From a virus, in IMG/VR virus record IMGVR_UViG_3300024062_000051, positions 1 to 27,334 of that record: 27,334 nt of DNA, one strand, 5' to 3'. Below, piece after piece: positions 10,065 through 21,102 of this stretch. The first letter of the stretch is position 1. Each line of letters begins with the position of its first letter. A program made the translations under genes and the position numbers. The notes under the pieces are model-generated. The model was not told the DNA's origin. It did not search any database and saw only the letters and a list, made by a program, of their open reading frames with translations.

Positions 10065-12871
10065 TAGAATCTCCTTCCTACTTTAATATATGTTCCTCTC
10101 CATTCAAGCTGGAGTATTTCTGAATTGAAGGGATCCTCTGTCCATATCTCTATGTCTGCTTCATCATGTCTTTGTTTAAATGAAATTCGATGATAAGCAT
10201 CCCTTTCAGGATTATCGTTAGTAAATGTTTGAGTAGGCCATCCAGAAGGTGCATTAAGAATATCCACATTAAAAATATCCCCATACGCCCAAAAGCCATA
10301 ATCAGTGATACGAAATTTACTAGCTGTTTGTGGAGTTCCTGAATCATCCCGTATCCATCTCCTTGATGGCATAAATGCAGATCTAAATGGATAACCAAAT
10401 GCAGCACCACCACCACCTAGATTAATAGGTAGGTTTATATTTCCACCACCTACTGACCACCCTGTTATCTCTGCACCGGGATTAGGTGCATCTGTTCCTT
10501 GATAAACCTTAAGATTAGGTTCATCCATTGGGTACCCAGAAGGGATAGATATAGATGTGTTAATACCTGTAGCTGTATGTAATAAATCTAAGAATGTCAC
10601 TCTATCCATGAAAGGAGTGACTGCCTGATTCATCCTCATTTCTATTTGATGAGGTGTATCTGAATCATCATTAATAATTAGTTGCAGCTTATTTTCTTTA
10701 AAGTTAATACTTAAAATTGTTACATCTTCAGGAAAAATCCACTTAGACCATGCTTGTTGTGGATCTTTTTTATGGTCTCGATACTCATAAATATAAAGAG
10801 TATTTTGCTCCAGTTCACTCAAACAAATAATTATATTCAGTGTTGAGGAAGCTGTGATCTGAGTAATGTTTCCCGGTATCAGTTTCTGAACATGATTAGT
10901 AATACCTACTGCTATATCTTGGTTATCTGAAGCAGCATCAACTGAGAATCTACTCATGCCTGAAAATAGGGAGGAGTAAGCTACAGAGAAAAATACATCA
11001 CTTGCATTACTAATAGGTTTAGATGAATCAGTATTGTCATAACTAGTGGTTTGAGGAAGAGCTGCATTTTGTGATGTGATTCCTATAGAACCAATCAATT
11101 TATACTGAGCATTCTTACTAAATAACAAAGCATCGTTATTGTGAGAAACAATATGATTGAGAGACAAAGAGTCAGTAGCTGTACTTTTAATGCCAATAGG
11201 ATCTATAGCTAGTTGTTGAGTAGCAGTATCTCGAAACCACGCATGGGCCTTATCTGTCTGAGACATAGATACTGTCTCACCAGATAACATAACTAGTCTG
11301 TCTTGAAATCGACCTATGTCATTAATGGTATTGTTTAAGAATTCAGGGAAAGGATTTGTATCATCGTTTCCTGCTTGTCTTGCTCTGGGACTATGGATAT
11401 TTTTTAGTCCTAGCTCTATTTGAGGGCCAGTAACAAATGATCCATCTGCATTAATACCTAATACATGAGGTAAGGTAGAGGTATTCCAGTAATTTAATAA
11501 TGCAGGATCAGCACATTCATTCCATACTACCTCTGGTAAAGCACCAAAGAATCCTTCTATCTTTTCAAAATACACATCATATGTTTGCCCAACTACCAAA
11601 TCTTTAGGATCGAAGGGAGTGATACCTGCCCAAGTAACATCATTTTCCAATTGTTGAAGCTGTGTCTCAACAACCATCTCACCTGTTGTTTGATTAACAA
11701 TAGTTACAAATTCTATGTTCTCAGGAAGACCCGGAGCTTCATCAAGAACTAATACTATTATTGCTTCATCACTACCTACTTCTGCATAGCTATGTAGATG
11801 GTTAATTAATACTGCTTGTATGGTATTAGGTACTAAATTACCAAAAGGAGGAAGTAAGCCTGGATTTTCAGGATCAGCTATTCGTTGAAAGCCTTTAAAA
11901 TGAAGAGTCTGTATAAATATATTCTCACCAACTGTAAGTACAGCATCTTCAACTAATGATTCAGCTACCTTTTTAGCTGCATAAGTCTCTTCACCATCTG
12001 TCTCAACATATGCCGTAGCTCTCATCCAGAACTGACCTCTATCTGAGGTTTTATCTGGTCTCACCTTAACTACAGAATCATGTGCTGCATATTTAGGTAG
12101 GTTATTTATATCCTGAGTTTCATCATTCAGGGTTGCTGCTACTGCATCATTAGCACCATCAGTAGCTGTGATATCTGCATATTCTCCATCAGCTCTCTTA
12201 ATAAGAACTGTTGATCCTTGAACATGAACTTCATCACTAGCAAAGATAATGGCAGCAATTAATACCCCTATCTCTGTAGCAGTTGTATTAGTACCTGTGT
12301 CATCAGTAATGAAATCAGGTACTTCATGCTCAACAGCTAATTGAACATTATCACTACCTGTCCAGATAACTTTTATTTTAGAGAAGGAAGCAGGTGCTTG
12401 TTTAATAACAAGCATAGATTCTTTAGTCCATAGTTCTTCTATACTAGAGTTAAGTATTACCTCATTCTTATTCCCTAGATAAATAGTTTCTTCAATATTA
12501 GTAAAAGCTAATGAATCATTTCCTGTCAGAGTATTAAGATAACTAGATCCTAAGAAGGGAACTACATCATGTTCAATACCAAACTCATCAAATACCCTAA
12601 TGAGATGAGTACCACCTGATCCCTGACCCGGTAATATAAATACCCATATCAACAAGTCATTAAGAATAGTTGAGAAGATAACATCTATTTCAGGATCAAA
12701 AGAACTTCCAAGTGTTTCAGTAATAAAGTGAGAAGCTGGTCGCTTAACTAATCCCTCCATAGGATCACATCGCCAGTTATCTACCTTCTTAGCGAATATA
12801 CCAGGATGTCTTTTATCATCTAGGGTACTGATACCTGCGGTAACAGTTTTTACAGATCCATCAACACGCAC
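10064..12871 (-). CDS. Tail tubular protein B / nozzle (T7 gp12-like)
   Basis: This 935-residue protein is longer than T7 gp12 (794). The N-terminus has the family signature: a GIS......R.P..FA..V.NW...PMEGL.KRP block at about residues 13-46. In this family it precedes the beta-propeller-like body that forms the tail nozzle. The rest is rich in Thr, Asn, Asp and Ile and looks mostly beta. The start is a GTG at 12871 that shares its first base with the TAG stop of tail tubular A (TAGTG); no better ATG lies nearby. Gp12 with gp11 makes the tail tube and carries the fibre attachment sites. The identification is secure from signature and neighbour. Confidence 0.9.
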   Translation of the reverse strand: MRVDGSVKTVTAGISTLDDKRHPGIFAKKVDNWRCDPMEGLVKRPASHFITETLGSSFDPEIDVIFSTILNDLLIWVFILPGQGSGGTHLIRVFDEFGIEHDVVPFLGSSYLNTLTGNDSLAFTNIEETIYLGNKNEVILNSSIEELWTKESMLVIKQAPASFSKIKVIWTGSDNVQLAVEHEVPDFITDDTGTNTTATEIGVLIAAIIFASDEVHVQGSTVLIKRADGEYADITATDGANDAVAATLNDETQDINNLPKYAAHDSVVKVRPDKTSDRGQFWMRATAYVETDGEETYAAKKVAESLVEDAVLTVGENIFIQTLHFKGFQRIADPENPGLLPPFGNLVPNTIQAVLINHLHSYAEVGSDEAIIVLVLDEAPGLPENIEFVTIVNQTTGEMVVETQLQQLENDVTWAGITPFDPKDLVVGQTYDVYFEKIEGFFGALPEVVWNECADPALLNYWNTSTLPHVLGINADGSFVTGPQIELGLKNIHSPRARQAGNDDTNPFPEFLNNTINDIGRFQDRLVMLSGETVSMSQTDKAHAWFRDTATQQLAIDPIGIKSTATDSLSLNHIVSHNNDALLFSKNAQYKLIGSIGITSQNAALPQTTSYDNTDSSKPISNASDVFFSVAYSSLFSGMSRFSVDAASDNQDIAVGITNHVQKLIPGNITQITASSTLNIIICLSELEQNTLYIYEYRDHKKDPQQAWSKWIFPEDVTILSINFKENKLQLIINDDSDTPHQIEMRMNQAVTPFMDRVTFLDLLHTATGINTSISIPSGYPMDEPNLKVYQGTDAPNPGAEITGWSVGGGNINLPINLGGGGAAFGYPFRSAFMPSRRWIRDDSGTPQTASKFRITDYGFWAYGDIFNVDILNAPSGWPTQTFTNDNPERDAYHRISFKQRHDEADIEIWTEDPFNSEILQLEWRGTYIKVGRRF

Positions 12872-13482
12872 TAGAAACCACCCCCAGGAAATGTAGGATT
12901 CCTTAAGTTATATCTTTTGTATGGTCGAACTCGATACATGAGTCTTTGAAATGCGGGAGTAGTAAATACACTCCTCTGCCGTACTTGTAGATCCTCTTGT
13001 TTCAATAAGACATAACTTTCTTGTGCATCACCTTGAATTAGTTGTGCCTTATTAGAATCTTCAAGCTCATGGATAATCATATTTACTGCTGCTCGATACA
13101 TAATTGCATCTTGAGCAGAGGGAGGTAAGGCATCCCATTCAAGAAGAAGAATAATATCTAGACAAAGATTTATATCCCATTCATAACTATCTTCGTATGG
13201 ATTATAAGCTTTGCCTTCTCTCTCAATAACAAATTGAGGCCACTGCCCAATAACCTTCAAAGTATTATCAGGTAATACAACTTCATCACTACCATCAGGT
13301 TCATAAACCTGACGAATTAATCTATTAAACCACCAACCTTTTTTCTGTACCCAGATAGATGCTTCATTAAGTCTAAGTTGTGCAGAGACAATATCAGGAA
13401 GATCTACATTGAGATTGGCAACAGGGGCAGCACCAACATGAGATAGCAGGAAGTTAACTGCTTCTAATTCTGAATAGGACAT
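12871..13482 (-). CDS. Tail tubular protein A / adaptor (T7 gp11-like)
   Basis: The 203 residues match T7 gp11 (196). The N-terminus (ELEAVNFLLSHVGAAPVANL) followed by A...L......VQ.KGWWFN is the recognised pattern of this family. Gp11 forms a dodecameric ring that joins the portal to the nozzle. The ATG has an AGGAG site 6 nt upstream, and this is the first gene after the long structured gap, so its translation starts independently and is not coupled to the capsid gene. Confidence 0.92.
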   Translation of the reverse strand: MSYSELEAVNFLLSHVGAAPVANLNVDLPDIVSAQLRLNEASIWVQKKGWWFNRLIRQVYEPDGSDEVVLPDNTLKVIGQWPQFVIEREGKAYNPYEDSYEWDINLCLDIILLLEWDALPPSAQDAIMYRAAVNMIIHELEDSNKAQLIQGDAQESYVLLKQEDLQVRQRSVFTTPAFQRLMYRVRPYKRYNLRNPTFPGGGF

Positions 13483-13530
13483 AAGTTACTCCTGAAATAT
13501 AGAGTAATTATGAGTCTTTTTAGAAGGATT

Positions 13531-13756
13531 GGATAGCAACCGGGGATCTCCCAGTCCGATTCAACAACTGCGGATTTTGTTATTGAACTTAACTATCCAT
13601 AAGATGGTGTCGGTCTTTCCCGACTGTCACTGATATTTTTGTCTCTCAGGAAGACACTCCAAGTCAGATTAAGCCTCAGATAGTGGGTAGTCTTTCCTAC
13701 CAGTCAGGTACGGGCTGCAGTACCATGCCGATCCTATTTATACTCAGTATCAGTGA
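13531..13756 (-). ncRNA. Candidate structured RNA between capsid and tail tubular A genes
   Basis: The 290-nt gap 13483-13772 has no supportable reading frame but is dense in inverted repeats, read on the transcribed minus strand. Domain 1: 13748-13756 pairs perfectly over 9 bp with 13627-13635 and encloses hairpins at 13707-13724 (GGTAC/GTACC), 13686-13701 (GGTAG/CTACC, loop GAAAGA) and 13641-13655 (GTCTT/GAGAC). Next comes a hairpin at 13609-13624 (GTCGG/CCGAC, loop GAAAGA). Domain 2, 13531-13598, is a three-way junction: outer stem GGATAG/CTATCC, one 9-bp arm (13579-13587 with 13560-13568), and one 5-bp arm (13550-13554 with 13540-13544). The loop TCCG could pair with the junction CGGA as a pseudoknot. 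No U-tract follows, so it is not a simple terminator. It would be transcribed with the capsid message. The pairing is seen; RNA function is inferred. Confidence 0.6.
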
Positions 13757-13772
13757 GTCATCCCAGCGAGGA

Positions 13773-14792
13773 TTAGGCTTTATTAATTACACCAGCATGT
13801 TCCGCACGGTTAGGTGTGGCTGCAAATGCCAGATATGAATCAATGAACCATTGAAGTTCAATATCGCTGTAGTAGACCTTACTTGTCAGAGGAATAGTTT
13901 CACCAGACAAGAGAGCTTTAGGCATAATCAACAGTGCAACAACATTAGCCTCTGCAGCACTCACATCGTAGGCTGCGTTGTTTCCTGGGTTGGAGAGGAA
14001 ATGGTCTGTGACTGTTTCTTGAGGTAGTCGGTTTGTTTTAACAACAGGGATGCCGCAGGAACGCATGACTGTTCCGTTTGCGTAATCTCCATTGCCAAGG
14101 GAGTAGTCTGAGTTGAGCAACTTATCATTGCGAAGCAAAGTGTAAAACTGCTCAGGATTAACAAAGAGCGCAGCTCCTTCCAAATCAACATCATTCTCCT
14201 CGATGGACTGACACAAGTCCTCAATTGCTCGCTGCAATTTATCAGGATCTTGTTCATCACCTGCTGCATCCAGATCAATTTGAGTACCACCATACCAACC
14301 TTCAGGCAGACGAGTAGTACCACCAGTACCATCACCAGCTATGATATTGGCTGCTTTAACTCCTTGAATACAAATTGCTTCATCAAAGAATCGACCAATA
14401 ATCTTACCGTGATCCTTACCGAGTTCAGCCCGTACATCATAGTGAGCTTGGAAATCATCCAGCAGATGGACATTATTCCTAGCCAAGATAATGGTATCTA
14501 CTTTCACAGATACATTATCAAAATCTACCTGACCGGGTTCTGGTCGAACTCCAGGTGTAACAGCTTGCAAAGAAGTAGTACCAATCCTGTCGTTAGTAAT
14601 AGTGTCAGTACCACGGACAGGCTTAACATTAATATACTTCCTCATGATCGATGTTTTGATCATTTGAGATTCTACTTCACCACCATACTCTTCAATGTGC
14701 AGTGGGTTAACAGTACCAGTATCAATTTGAAATTGATGACCGGGACGAGTTAGTTCGCCTGTGAAAAACGGGCCATTGATTACATCAGCCAT
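13773..14792 (-). CDS. Major capsid protein (T7 gp10-like, HK97 fold)
   Basis: At 339 residues it is very close to T7 gp10A (345). It follows the scaffold gene and carries the recognisable flow of the podovirus family: an N-terminal MADVINGPFFTGE...QF arm, the early T.....(G)T.T....G..... strand region, a LLDDFQAHYDVRAELG..HG..I....D spine helix region (about 110-135), and a C-terminal P.RAEHAGVI tail similar to T7. It self-assembles with the scaffold into the procapsid. A ribosome site AAGGGG lies upstream of the ATG at 14792, 3 nt after the scaffold stop. It is followed by the long structured gap, and I see no frameshift signal for a longer form such as T7 10B. Confidence 0.92.
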   Translation of the reverse strand: MADVINGPFFTGELTRPGHQFQIDTGTVNPLHIEEYGGEVESQMIKTSIMRKYINVKPVRGTDTITNDRIGTTSLQAVTPGVRPEPGQVDFDNVSVKVDTIILARNNVHLLDDFQAHYDVRAELGKDHGKIIGRFFDEAICIQGVKAANIIAGDGTGGTTRLPEGWYGGTQIDLDAAGDEQDPDKLQRAIEDLCQSIEENDVDLEGAALFVNPEQFYTLLRNDKLLNSDYSLGNGDYANGTVMRSCGIPVVKTNRLPQETVTDHFLSNPGNNAAYDVSAAEANVVALLIMPKALLSGETIPLTSKVYYSDIELQWFIDSYLAFAATPNRAEHAGVINKA

Positions 14793-20278: not shown

Positions 20279-20475
20279 TAAGGATCAACACAATTGGGAC
20301 ATCCTACTGGTGCTGCATCAGCCTCAAACATTAGTTCAATCTTCTTCTTAGTAATCTTGTCTGTATCTTTAGGATGAATATTTCTAGAGAACACACGATT
20401 CCAATACAGAATGTTATCTAGATCTTTTTTAGTAAGAGCTAAGATTTCTCCTTGTGTTGGTAGTCTAGGCTTCAT
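20278..20475 (-). CDS. Small protein before the RNA polymerase gene (unknown)
   Basis: This 65-residue, basic, soluble protein starts at the ATG at 20475. It overlaps the end of the preceding 86-residue frame by 11 nt and shares its stop with the polymerase start (TAATG). It has a helical N-terminal half (GEILALTKKDLDNILYWNRVF), a Lys-rich middle, and a C-terminal C..C pair (CPNC at about 59-62). I do not recognise it. Tight coupling to the RNA polymerase suggests co-translation. A single CxxC does not make a zinc finger on its own. Confidence 0.65.
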   Translation of the reverse strand: MKPRLPTQGEILALTKKDLDNILYWNRVFSRNIHPKDTDKITKKKIELMFEADAAPVGCPNCVDP

Positions 20476-20725
20476 TTGTTTGAGCCTCTAGGAATTCAAA
20501 GAAATCGACAAGATGACTGTGAATATCCCAGTCCTTATTAAACAATTCATTATATTGCTGGGTACCTTCCATGAGTGCAGCAAGATGTTTTTCTAGTGAA
20601 TCTTTTCTTGCCCACTCTCCATAACCTTTAAGGAAATAGAACCAAGATTCTCTATTCTTAGCCAGGTCAGCAAGCTTTACTTCGTCTGTTTTCTTTTGAG
20701 TCGTGCTCTCTTGTTCTTTAATAAT
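20465..20725 (-). CDS. 86-residue protein with apparent AUU start (unknown)
   Basis: This frame has no ATG, GTG or TTG near its beginning. It is bounded upstream by TAG at 20740-20738 and reads to TAG at 20467-20465. A GAGGAG ribosome site (20731-20736) stands 5 nt before ATT at 20725, so an AUU start is the most economical reading (a rare start known from infC). The coding content is convincing: 86 codons filling an otherwise empty 200-nt gap, Trp/Phe/Tyr/Leu-rich helices (ESWFYFLKGYGEWARKDSLE, then HLVDFFEFLE) and a final ATG overlap with the next gene. The first 49 nt overlap the end of the endonuclease VII gene in the -1 frame. The alternative is -1 frameshifting that fuses it to the endonuclease. 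Function unknown. Confidence 0.6.
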   Translation of the reverse strand: MIKEQESTTQKKTDEVKLADLAKNRESWFYFLKGYGEWARKDSLEKHLAALMEGTQQYNELFNKDWDIHSHLVDFFEFLEAQTNEA

Positions 20726-21102
20726 CGTTTCTCCTCGCTAGTTTTAAAACTGGGATGATCCATCCCATGAACATCTACATTATGTCTGATGTAATAGTCA
20801 GCCATCCTCTCTAATAAATAAGCTATATCTAAATGGCTGTTCACATCTACCGATGTATGCCACCTCTCAATACAATTAATTATCTTACCTTCGAGAGAAT
20901 TACAGCCACTACATAACACATCCCTTATCTGACCATGCTTATGGGAATGATCAAGACAAGGAGTGTGTTTAGCTACAGCCTTTTTCTTTTTGTGATTGTA
21001 GTAAGCCTCACTAAAATCACAGCCACAAACAGCACACTGATTATCCTGTTGTTCCTGGAATACTTTTCGTAGTCCTGCTATTTCACTGTGTTTTACTTTC
21101 AT
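20677..21102 (-). CDS. Recombination endonuclease VII (Holliday junction resolvase-type)
   Basis: The 141 residues compare with 157 in T4 endonuclease VII. The zinc-binding set is complete: C23..C26 (CAVC) and C64..C67 (CSGC), followed by N68. The catalytic PCLDHSHKHG.IR block is at 48-60 with D51-H52, as in this His-Me finger family. The enzyme cleaves branched DNA (junctions, mismatches and heteroduplex loops) and in T4 debranches DNA before packaging. In phiKMV-type phages the same enzyme sits in this position, between exonuclease and RNA polymerase. The C-terminus is basic (KRLLKNKRARLKRK), probably for DNA contact. It starts at an ATGA overlap. Confidence 0.92.
   Translation of the reverse strand: MKVKHSEIAGLRKVFQEQQDNQCAVCGCDFSEAYYNHKKKKAVAKHTPCLDHSHKHGQIRDVLCSGCNSLEGKIINCIERWHTSVDVNSHLDIAYLLERMADYYIRHNVDVHGMDHPSFKTSEEKRLLKNKRARLKRKQTK
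20731..20736 (-). promoter_or_regulatory. Shine-Dalgarno site for the AUU-start gene
   Basis: GAGGAG lies inside the endonuclease VII coding region, 5 nt before ATT at 20725. Its spacing is right for initiation at that codon and it is the main reason for choosing this start. It could be coincidental, because it also encodes Glu-Glu in the endonuclease frame. Confidence 0.45.

Follow-up and report, generated by a model that had tools for sequence, protein, structure and literature searches.

A hairpin of about 22 nucleotides, made up of a UGAC foot, one nucleotide, a 5-bp stem of free sequence and a GAAAGA (rarely GAGAGA) loop, occurs in untranslated RNA from over 100 otherwise unrelated bacterial viruses, its stem varying by compensating mutations, and is, as judged from comparison of sequences, a real RNA family that resides on the transcribed strand. 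Two hairpins that almost certainly belong to this family lie in the gap between the major capsid and tail tubular A genes of the phage analyzed here. We found no earlier description of the motif, or of such phage RNAs, in the open-access literature, and its novelty is conditional on that search.

The window (the whole stretch of 27,334 nucleotides analyzed) is one 27-kb virus record, the proteins of which match T7-like head, tail, DNA polymerase and single-subunit RNA polymerase families, the latter being PHROG 414, and the main genes of which are on the minus strand (see Table 1 for the features of the capsid/tail border). An earlier note on this DNA had singled out the capsid/tail gap as the one long gene-free gap of the genome, and had described its content as a non-coding RNA, structured on the transcribed strand, that is followed by no U-tract, is unlikely to be a simple terminator and cannot be assigned to a known RNA class by eye. 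This description stands. The gap holds no minus-strand open reading frame of at least 20 amino acids, and the only other candidate gap, 20476–20676, is spanned by a 90-codon open frame. The transcribed strand of the gap contains neither a run of five T nor a terminator-like site, so that an intrinsic terminator of the T7 T-phi kind, with a GC-rich stem and a U run, was rejected. With Rfam 15 covariance models no match was obtained in the window at gathering score and none in the gap up to an E value of 10. No sigma-70 promoter-like site is found in the gap and no tRNA in the window. Comparison of the gap DNA with phages and plasmids returned short, chance-level similarities only, its sole homologue being one near-identical contig, which is also all that was retrieved when tail genes were used as bait for closer relatives. 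The 90-codon frame on the minus strand (20465–20737) overlaps the end of the 20677–21102 gene and lacks an ATG, GTG or TTG close to where it begins; it possibly uses an unusual start codon, or is a frameshift product of the upstream gene.

Table 1. Features of the capsid/tail border in the window (P, pair probability)
Feature	Position	Strand	Details
Major capsid gene	13773-14792	-	PHROG 267
Non-coding capsid/tail gap	13483..13772	-	290 nt; holds the element
Multibranched region enclosing copy 1	13627..13756	-	closing helix 9 bp, 13748-13756/13627-13635, P 0.85
Hairpin copy 1	13685..13706	-	UGAC-U-GGUAG[GAAAGA]CUACC-C; R1 E 9.2e-6; P 0.90
Hairpin copy 2	13608..13629	-	UGAC-A-GUCGG[GAAAGA]CCGAC-A; R1 E 6.1e-8; P 1.00
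Three-way junction, closed	13530..13599	-	70 nt; closing helix 8 bp, arms 10 bp and 7 bp; P 0.95-0.98
Small hairpin with Shine-Dalgarno AGGAG of tail tubular A	13486..13507	-	MFE helix 13507-13501/13492-13486, P 0.78
Tail tubular A gene	12871-13482	-	PHROG 446

Folding of the transcribed strand gives −82.2 kcal/mol for the 290-nt gap (z −2.26 against shuffles) and −69.1 kcal/mol for 226 nt of it (z −2.58), with z about −2.3 to −2.8 against dinucleotide shuffles overall, and with z at +0.37 for the opposite strand. The gap thus folds better than shuffled sequence and yet is not unusual for this genome: 226-nt windows on the same strand have a mean z of −0.89, and 15 of 181 others (8%), nearly all of them coding, fold as well or better relative to their own shuffles. 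Because such a share of the phage's other windows is equally extreme, folding energy proves little for a special RNA, and after this genome-wide control we dropped it as proof of a structured RNA. The MFE fold comprises twelve helices of 5–10 bp, where the earlier note had counted at least seven, and eight of the twelve have a mean pair probability of at least 0.78. Its well-defined parts (0.90–1.00) are the two GAAAGA hairpins and the three-way junction, the latter starting 8 nt after hairpin copy 2 and not itself supported by covariation. The multibranched region corresponds to the first domain of the earlier note, and its inner helices (pair probability 0.25–0.32) have no comparative support. 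Given these low probabilities, and given that the 9-bp closing helix overlaps the UGA of the conserved foot of copy 2, this domain may not be a functional fold. The proposal that the complete 226-nt two-domain fold is one conserved RNA is not supported, the conserved part being a 22-nt hairpin that is present twice; a ribozyme or packaging RNA is likewise without support, and the suggestion of a capsid-mRNA stabilizer or processing site continues to be a good guess.

Copy 2 is positioned 77 nt downstream of copy 1, and the two have identical feet and loops and different, fully paired stems; at three of the five pairs both bases differ. No other GAAAGA hairpin in the window has a stem of at least 4 bp. 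A covariance model, R1, built from 30 hairpins, none from the window, retrieves both copies from the 27-kb window at E values of 6e-8 and 9e-6, followed by a next match at 0.08. That the gap is decayed or filler intergenic sequence folding by chance would agree with its energy, which lies inside the range of coding windows, but is hardly credible in the face of these two matches, of the appearance of a same-loop, different-stem hairpin pair in just 1 of 20,000 gap shuffles (and in no window tile away from the gap), and of the covariation across phages described below.

The family was traced in the viral collection with two patterns. In the first scan the shared foot, the loop and a downstream AUCU were fixed and four stem positions on each side were left free; this yielded 31 stretches, and five or more pairs form in 12 distinct loci from outside the window's species, the random expectation being about 2%. 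The second scan, with 18 fixed bases, yielded at least 120 viral contigs, where about one is expected on the grounds that a specific 16-mer gave 15 stretches in total in the same collection. Both stem pairs that the pattern does not constrain are formed in 80 of 80 distinct hits, as C-G, G-C, U-A, A-U or U.G. Ten of these are U.G and none is C.A, from which it follows that the molecule is RNA and that its strand is fixed. This count constitutes the unbiased pairing test, as alignments A5 and A6 hold only hits chosen for at least five pairs; in rows preselected in this way all pairs are formed (100%), with 42 double-sided changes and a covariation of 0.92 versus at most 0.17 when slid. Variation in foot and loop is underestimated, since the patterns fixed UGAC and GGAAAGAC. 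No Rfam family covers the hairpin in the loci scanned. A 21-base version matches seven bacterial genome contigs, and a Rufibacter genome contig and L139 appear to be the same element.

Cultured carriers include Acinetobacter phage Alexa, E. coli phage mEp390, Cronobacter phage ESP2949-1, Stenotrophomonas phages Pokken and BUCT708, Pseudomonas phage Medea1, Klebsiella phage P7641 and Synechococcus phage MinM2, the last with a GAGAGA loop. Intergenic regions bearing the hairpin are long, with a median of 417 nt, and the next gene runs in the direction of the hairpin in 50 of 59 intergenic cases; the window copies likewise occupy an untranslated gap, on the coding strand and in the same direction as the next gene. 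The hairpin is found within regions of 300–1000 nt without annotated genes (mEp390, Medea1, MinM2, Klebsiella P7641 and BUCT708), in early-operon leaders beside repressor genes (mEp390 and BUCT708), upstream of terminase (Rufibacter prophage contig L139, ESP2949-1 and DIBBI) and ahead of tRNA arrays (Pokken). Gene-free regions of an E. coli prophage (L282:2076-3109), Stenotrophomonas BUCT708 (L278:801-1500), mEp390 (L271:1972-2280) and Klebsiella P7641 (L274:925-1626) share modules by eye, among which are a GGAAGCGCAUUCC...GGAGUGCGCUUCC hairpin and GCUGUGUGUAGUCUUGG, and together resemble a large noncoding phage RNA of modular build that often adjoins the repressor gene. Leaders by repressor genes, terminase-upstream sites and positions before tRNA arrays are places where antitermination helps, and the hairpin could accordingly be a nascent-RNA antiterminator that, like HK022 put, binds the elongating host RNA polymerase and allows readthrough of long untranslated stretches. 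We consider this improbable: put RNAs have two stem-loops in about 70 nt and target the host RNA polymerase (PMC9378689); the window phage encodes a single-subunit RNA polymerase of its own, which is expected to transcribe the late genes; and R1 finds nothing in HK022 24000-40751, a record in which the put sites are not annotated. For this stretch of HK022, put itself was rejected as the source of the hairpin.

In 16 of 125 distinct hits, a tRNA-like acceptor stem begins at a distance of exactly 3 or 4 nt downstream of the hairpin, control offsets giving 0–6 at any position. The window copies are not among the 20 loci with a tRNA-like domain (acceptor stem 3–4 nt after the hairpin and a TTCRA T-loop); the three-way junction following copy 2 is analogous to such a domain in place, not in sequence. 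Many of the hairpin-adjacent domains have an odd length of 60–144 nt and some seem to have no anticodon arm, and many hits are without an adjoining tRNA-like domain. A general closed domain beside the hairpin was rejected, the adjoining 12 nt being, in general, no more often paired as part of a closed domain than they are in shuffles. At seven loci (L153, L196, L203, L209, L212, L215 and L223) a tRNA-like domain of 60–144 nt directly after the hairpin features good D and T arms and an anticodon/variable region that is missing or greatly altered, and several of these seven are not called as tRNA by ARAGORN. Tandem copies are common (L156, L207, L219, L224 and BUCT708). Similarity between related loci often ends after the hairpin (L155/L163/L183, L213/L226 and L165/L200) and at L169/L194/L204 ends before it, and at some loci (e.g., L169 and L204) the hairpin and a nearby terminator-like stem are both kept.

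The hairpins may alternatively serve as recognition modules within a noncoding phage RNA that acts in trans and is excised from the transcript, for instance a counter-defense or sponge RNA, which in the window would comprise a region of roughly 230 nt with both copies and the three-way junction. The long unannotated regions listed above, the tandem copies and the unusual length of the neighboring tRNA-like domains point in this direction, as do further segments common by eye to the E. coli prophage and Stenotrophomonas BUCT708, such as GGAAUGUGCAAGCCA and GGCGGUACGGUGU. We nevertheless deem it unlikely: the window RNA is part of a structural operon, the gap lacks a sigma-70 promoter-like site, and no similarity to those RNAs was detected in its other parts. 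As possible main rivals to a role in marking RNA borders we regard a trans-acting RNA and a put-like antiterminator.

Turning to the relatives of the phage, the nearest cultured ones by capsid are Foturvirus phages of Alteromonas, with 58% capsid identity, and capsid searches of the viral collection provided about 75 loci with a readable gap, some of them redundant. In most readable gaps the capsid stop codon is directly followed by a single strong stem, behind which a U run is usually present. In the four closest relatives (77–79% capsid identity), a terminator comes first and a small hairpin that covaries lies between it and tail tubular A; the window's gap sequence is found in none of these. 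Sister and cousin gaps span about 40–170 nt, with 308 nt and a small ORF in one sister; short or unrelated gaps in related phages, which the earlier note had named in advance as speaking against its structured RNA, are thus what the relatives have, most with an ordinary terminator hairpin. R1 gave no significant match in 42 capsid-relative loci (233 kb), and at a capsid/tail border the hairpin occurs in one species only, being absent from the equivalent gap of relatives. Whole-gap covariation is not computable, the sole homologue being identical. Since relatives carry other sequence, mostly terminators, the window gap is a replacement in its lineage, and the replacement point coincides with a drop in similarity to the sister from 78% identity in the capsid to about 40% in tail tubular A. 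This drop, together with the frequent break of similarity at the hairpin elsewhere, would suit a selfish or recombination-promoting repeat, in which 22 near-identical bases are kept for module swapping and the RNA is not read. Such a site would, however, conserve sequence, whereas here the stem is free, pairing is kept and U.G is found but never C.A, which makes this reading very unlikely.

The borders of the relatives have features of their own. In one sister phage (L051:1475-1633) an ORF for a 52-aa lysine-rich protein is inserted in the capsid/tail gap. The second covarying hairpin of the sister phages, just upstream of tail tubular A (L001:4130-4180, L002:3120-3170, L051:1645-1700 and L084:3300-3350), has the form AACCUGA-stem-loop-stem-UCUUUG with differing stems, GACAGG/CCUGUC, GAUGCAGC/GCUGCAUC and GACAUACC/GGUGUGUC, and in L001 and L002 its loop bases could pair with the sequence after UUUG to form a pseudoknot. 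In eight Foturvirus-like loci (L007, L008, L009, L015, L017, L022, L047 and L048), the capsid gene is followed by a stem in two parts that contains a small internal loop and varies in its lower part; it looks less like a plain terminator than like the RNase III sites of T7.

With its fixed loop and foot and its free stem, the hairpin qualifies as a site read by a putative factor, and the fixed tRNA-like spacing, the tandem arrays and the module borders suggest that units are marked in untranslated phage RNA. Most likely, a factor-recognized hairpin delimits or stabilizes RNA units. A putative protein, widespread in Gram-negative hosts or carried by the phages, would read the fixed loop and the UGAC foot; the hairpin would then mark the border between RNA units, and the long transcript would be cut, capped or protected there. 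In the window, the capsid mRNA would gain a stable 3' end and would be separated from the tail mRNA, the hairpins taking over the job of the intrinsic terminators of sister phages. The hairpin family and its two copies are there to be read in the sequences, and it is from these that we infer the factor and its effect. We hold this border or processing role tentatively, and with the same reserve regard the gap as an untranslated stretch of late transcript in which two recurrent hairpins, read by a factor, may mark an RNA-unit border. By extension, it is plausible, if some way from assured, that the hairpin is an uncatalogued RNA signal, read by one conserved factor, with which phages of many Gram-negative hosts organize their untranslated RNA; among the elements organized in this way could then quite conceivably be noncoding RNAs, tRNA-like domains and, in the window, the border between capsid and tail. 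The noncoding RNA of phages has been little charted, and the hairpin points to a shared RNA-handling step of infection. It offers a simple tag for finding phage noncoding RNAs as well as a bait for the factor that reads it.

Several known systems invite comparison. GOLLD, ROOL, T4 RNA C/D and bacterial YrlA are likewise structured RNAs that occur in phages, beside tRNA genes or with tRNA-like parts; at Rfam gathering scores GOLLD, ROOL and YrlA are found neither in the window nor in the loci scanned, and T4 RNA C/D was rejected as the source, with no R1 match in the T4 RNA C/D region. YrlA, or Ro60 Y RNA, was rejected as well, as 0 of 18 hairpin-bearing records pass the YrlA cut-off and the window has no Rfam match. 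A TROVE (Ro60) protein is encoded in two of these 18 records, both of them large phages (L156, 322 kb, and L223, 94 kb) that also contain weak YrlA-like matches, and in L223 a tmRNA is present in addition. Like HK022 put, it is an RNA hairpin that phages encode in untranslated leaders, and next to which no dedicated protein factor is known. Like lambda boxB, to which N binds, the hairpin combines a 5-bp stem with a fixed purine-rich loop that starts with GAA and is read as RNA. Lambda boxB has a GNRNA pentaloop with boxA adjacent, and a boxB/nut identity was rejected in view of the GAAAGA hexaloop and fixed UGAC foot of both window copies. The window gap occupies the position of T7 T-phi and of the terminators of the sister phages, between the major capsid gene and the first tail gene; T-phi, between T7 genes 10 and 11, is one stem followed by a U run, whereas the window gap has no run of five U and carries several hairpins.
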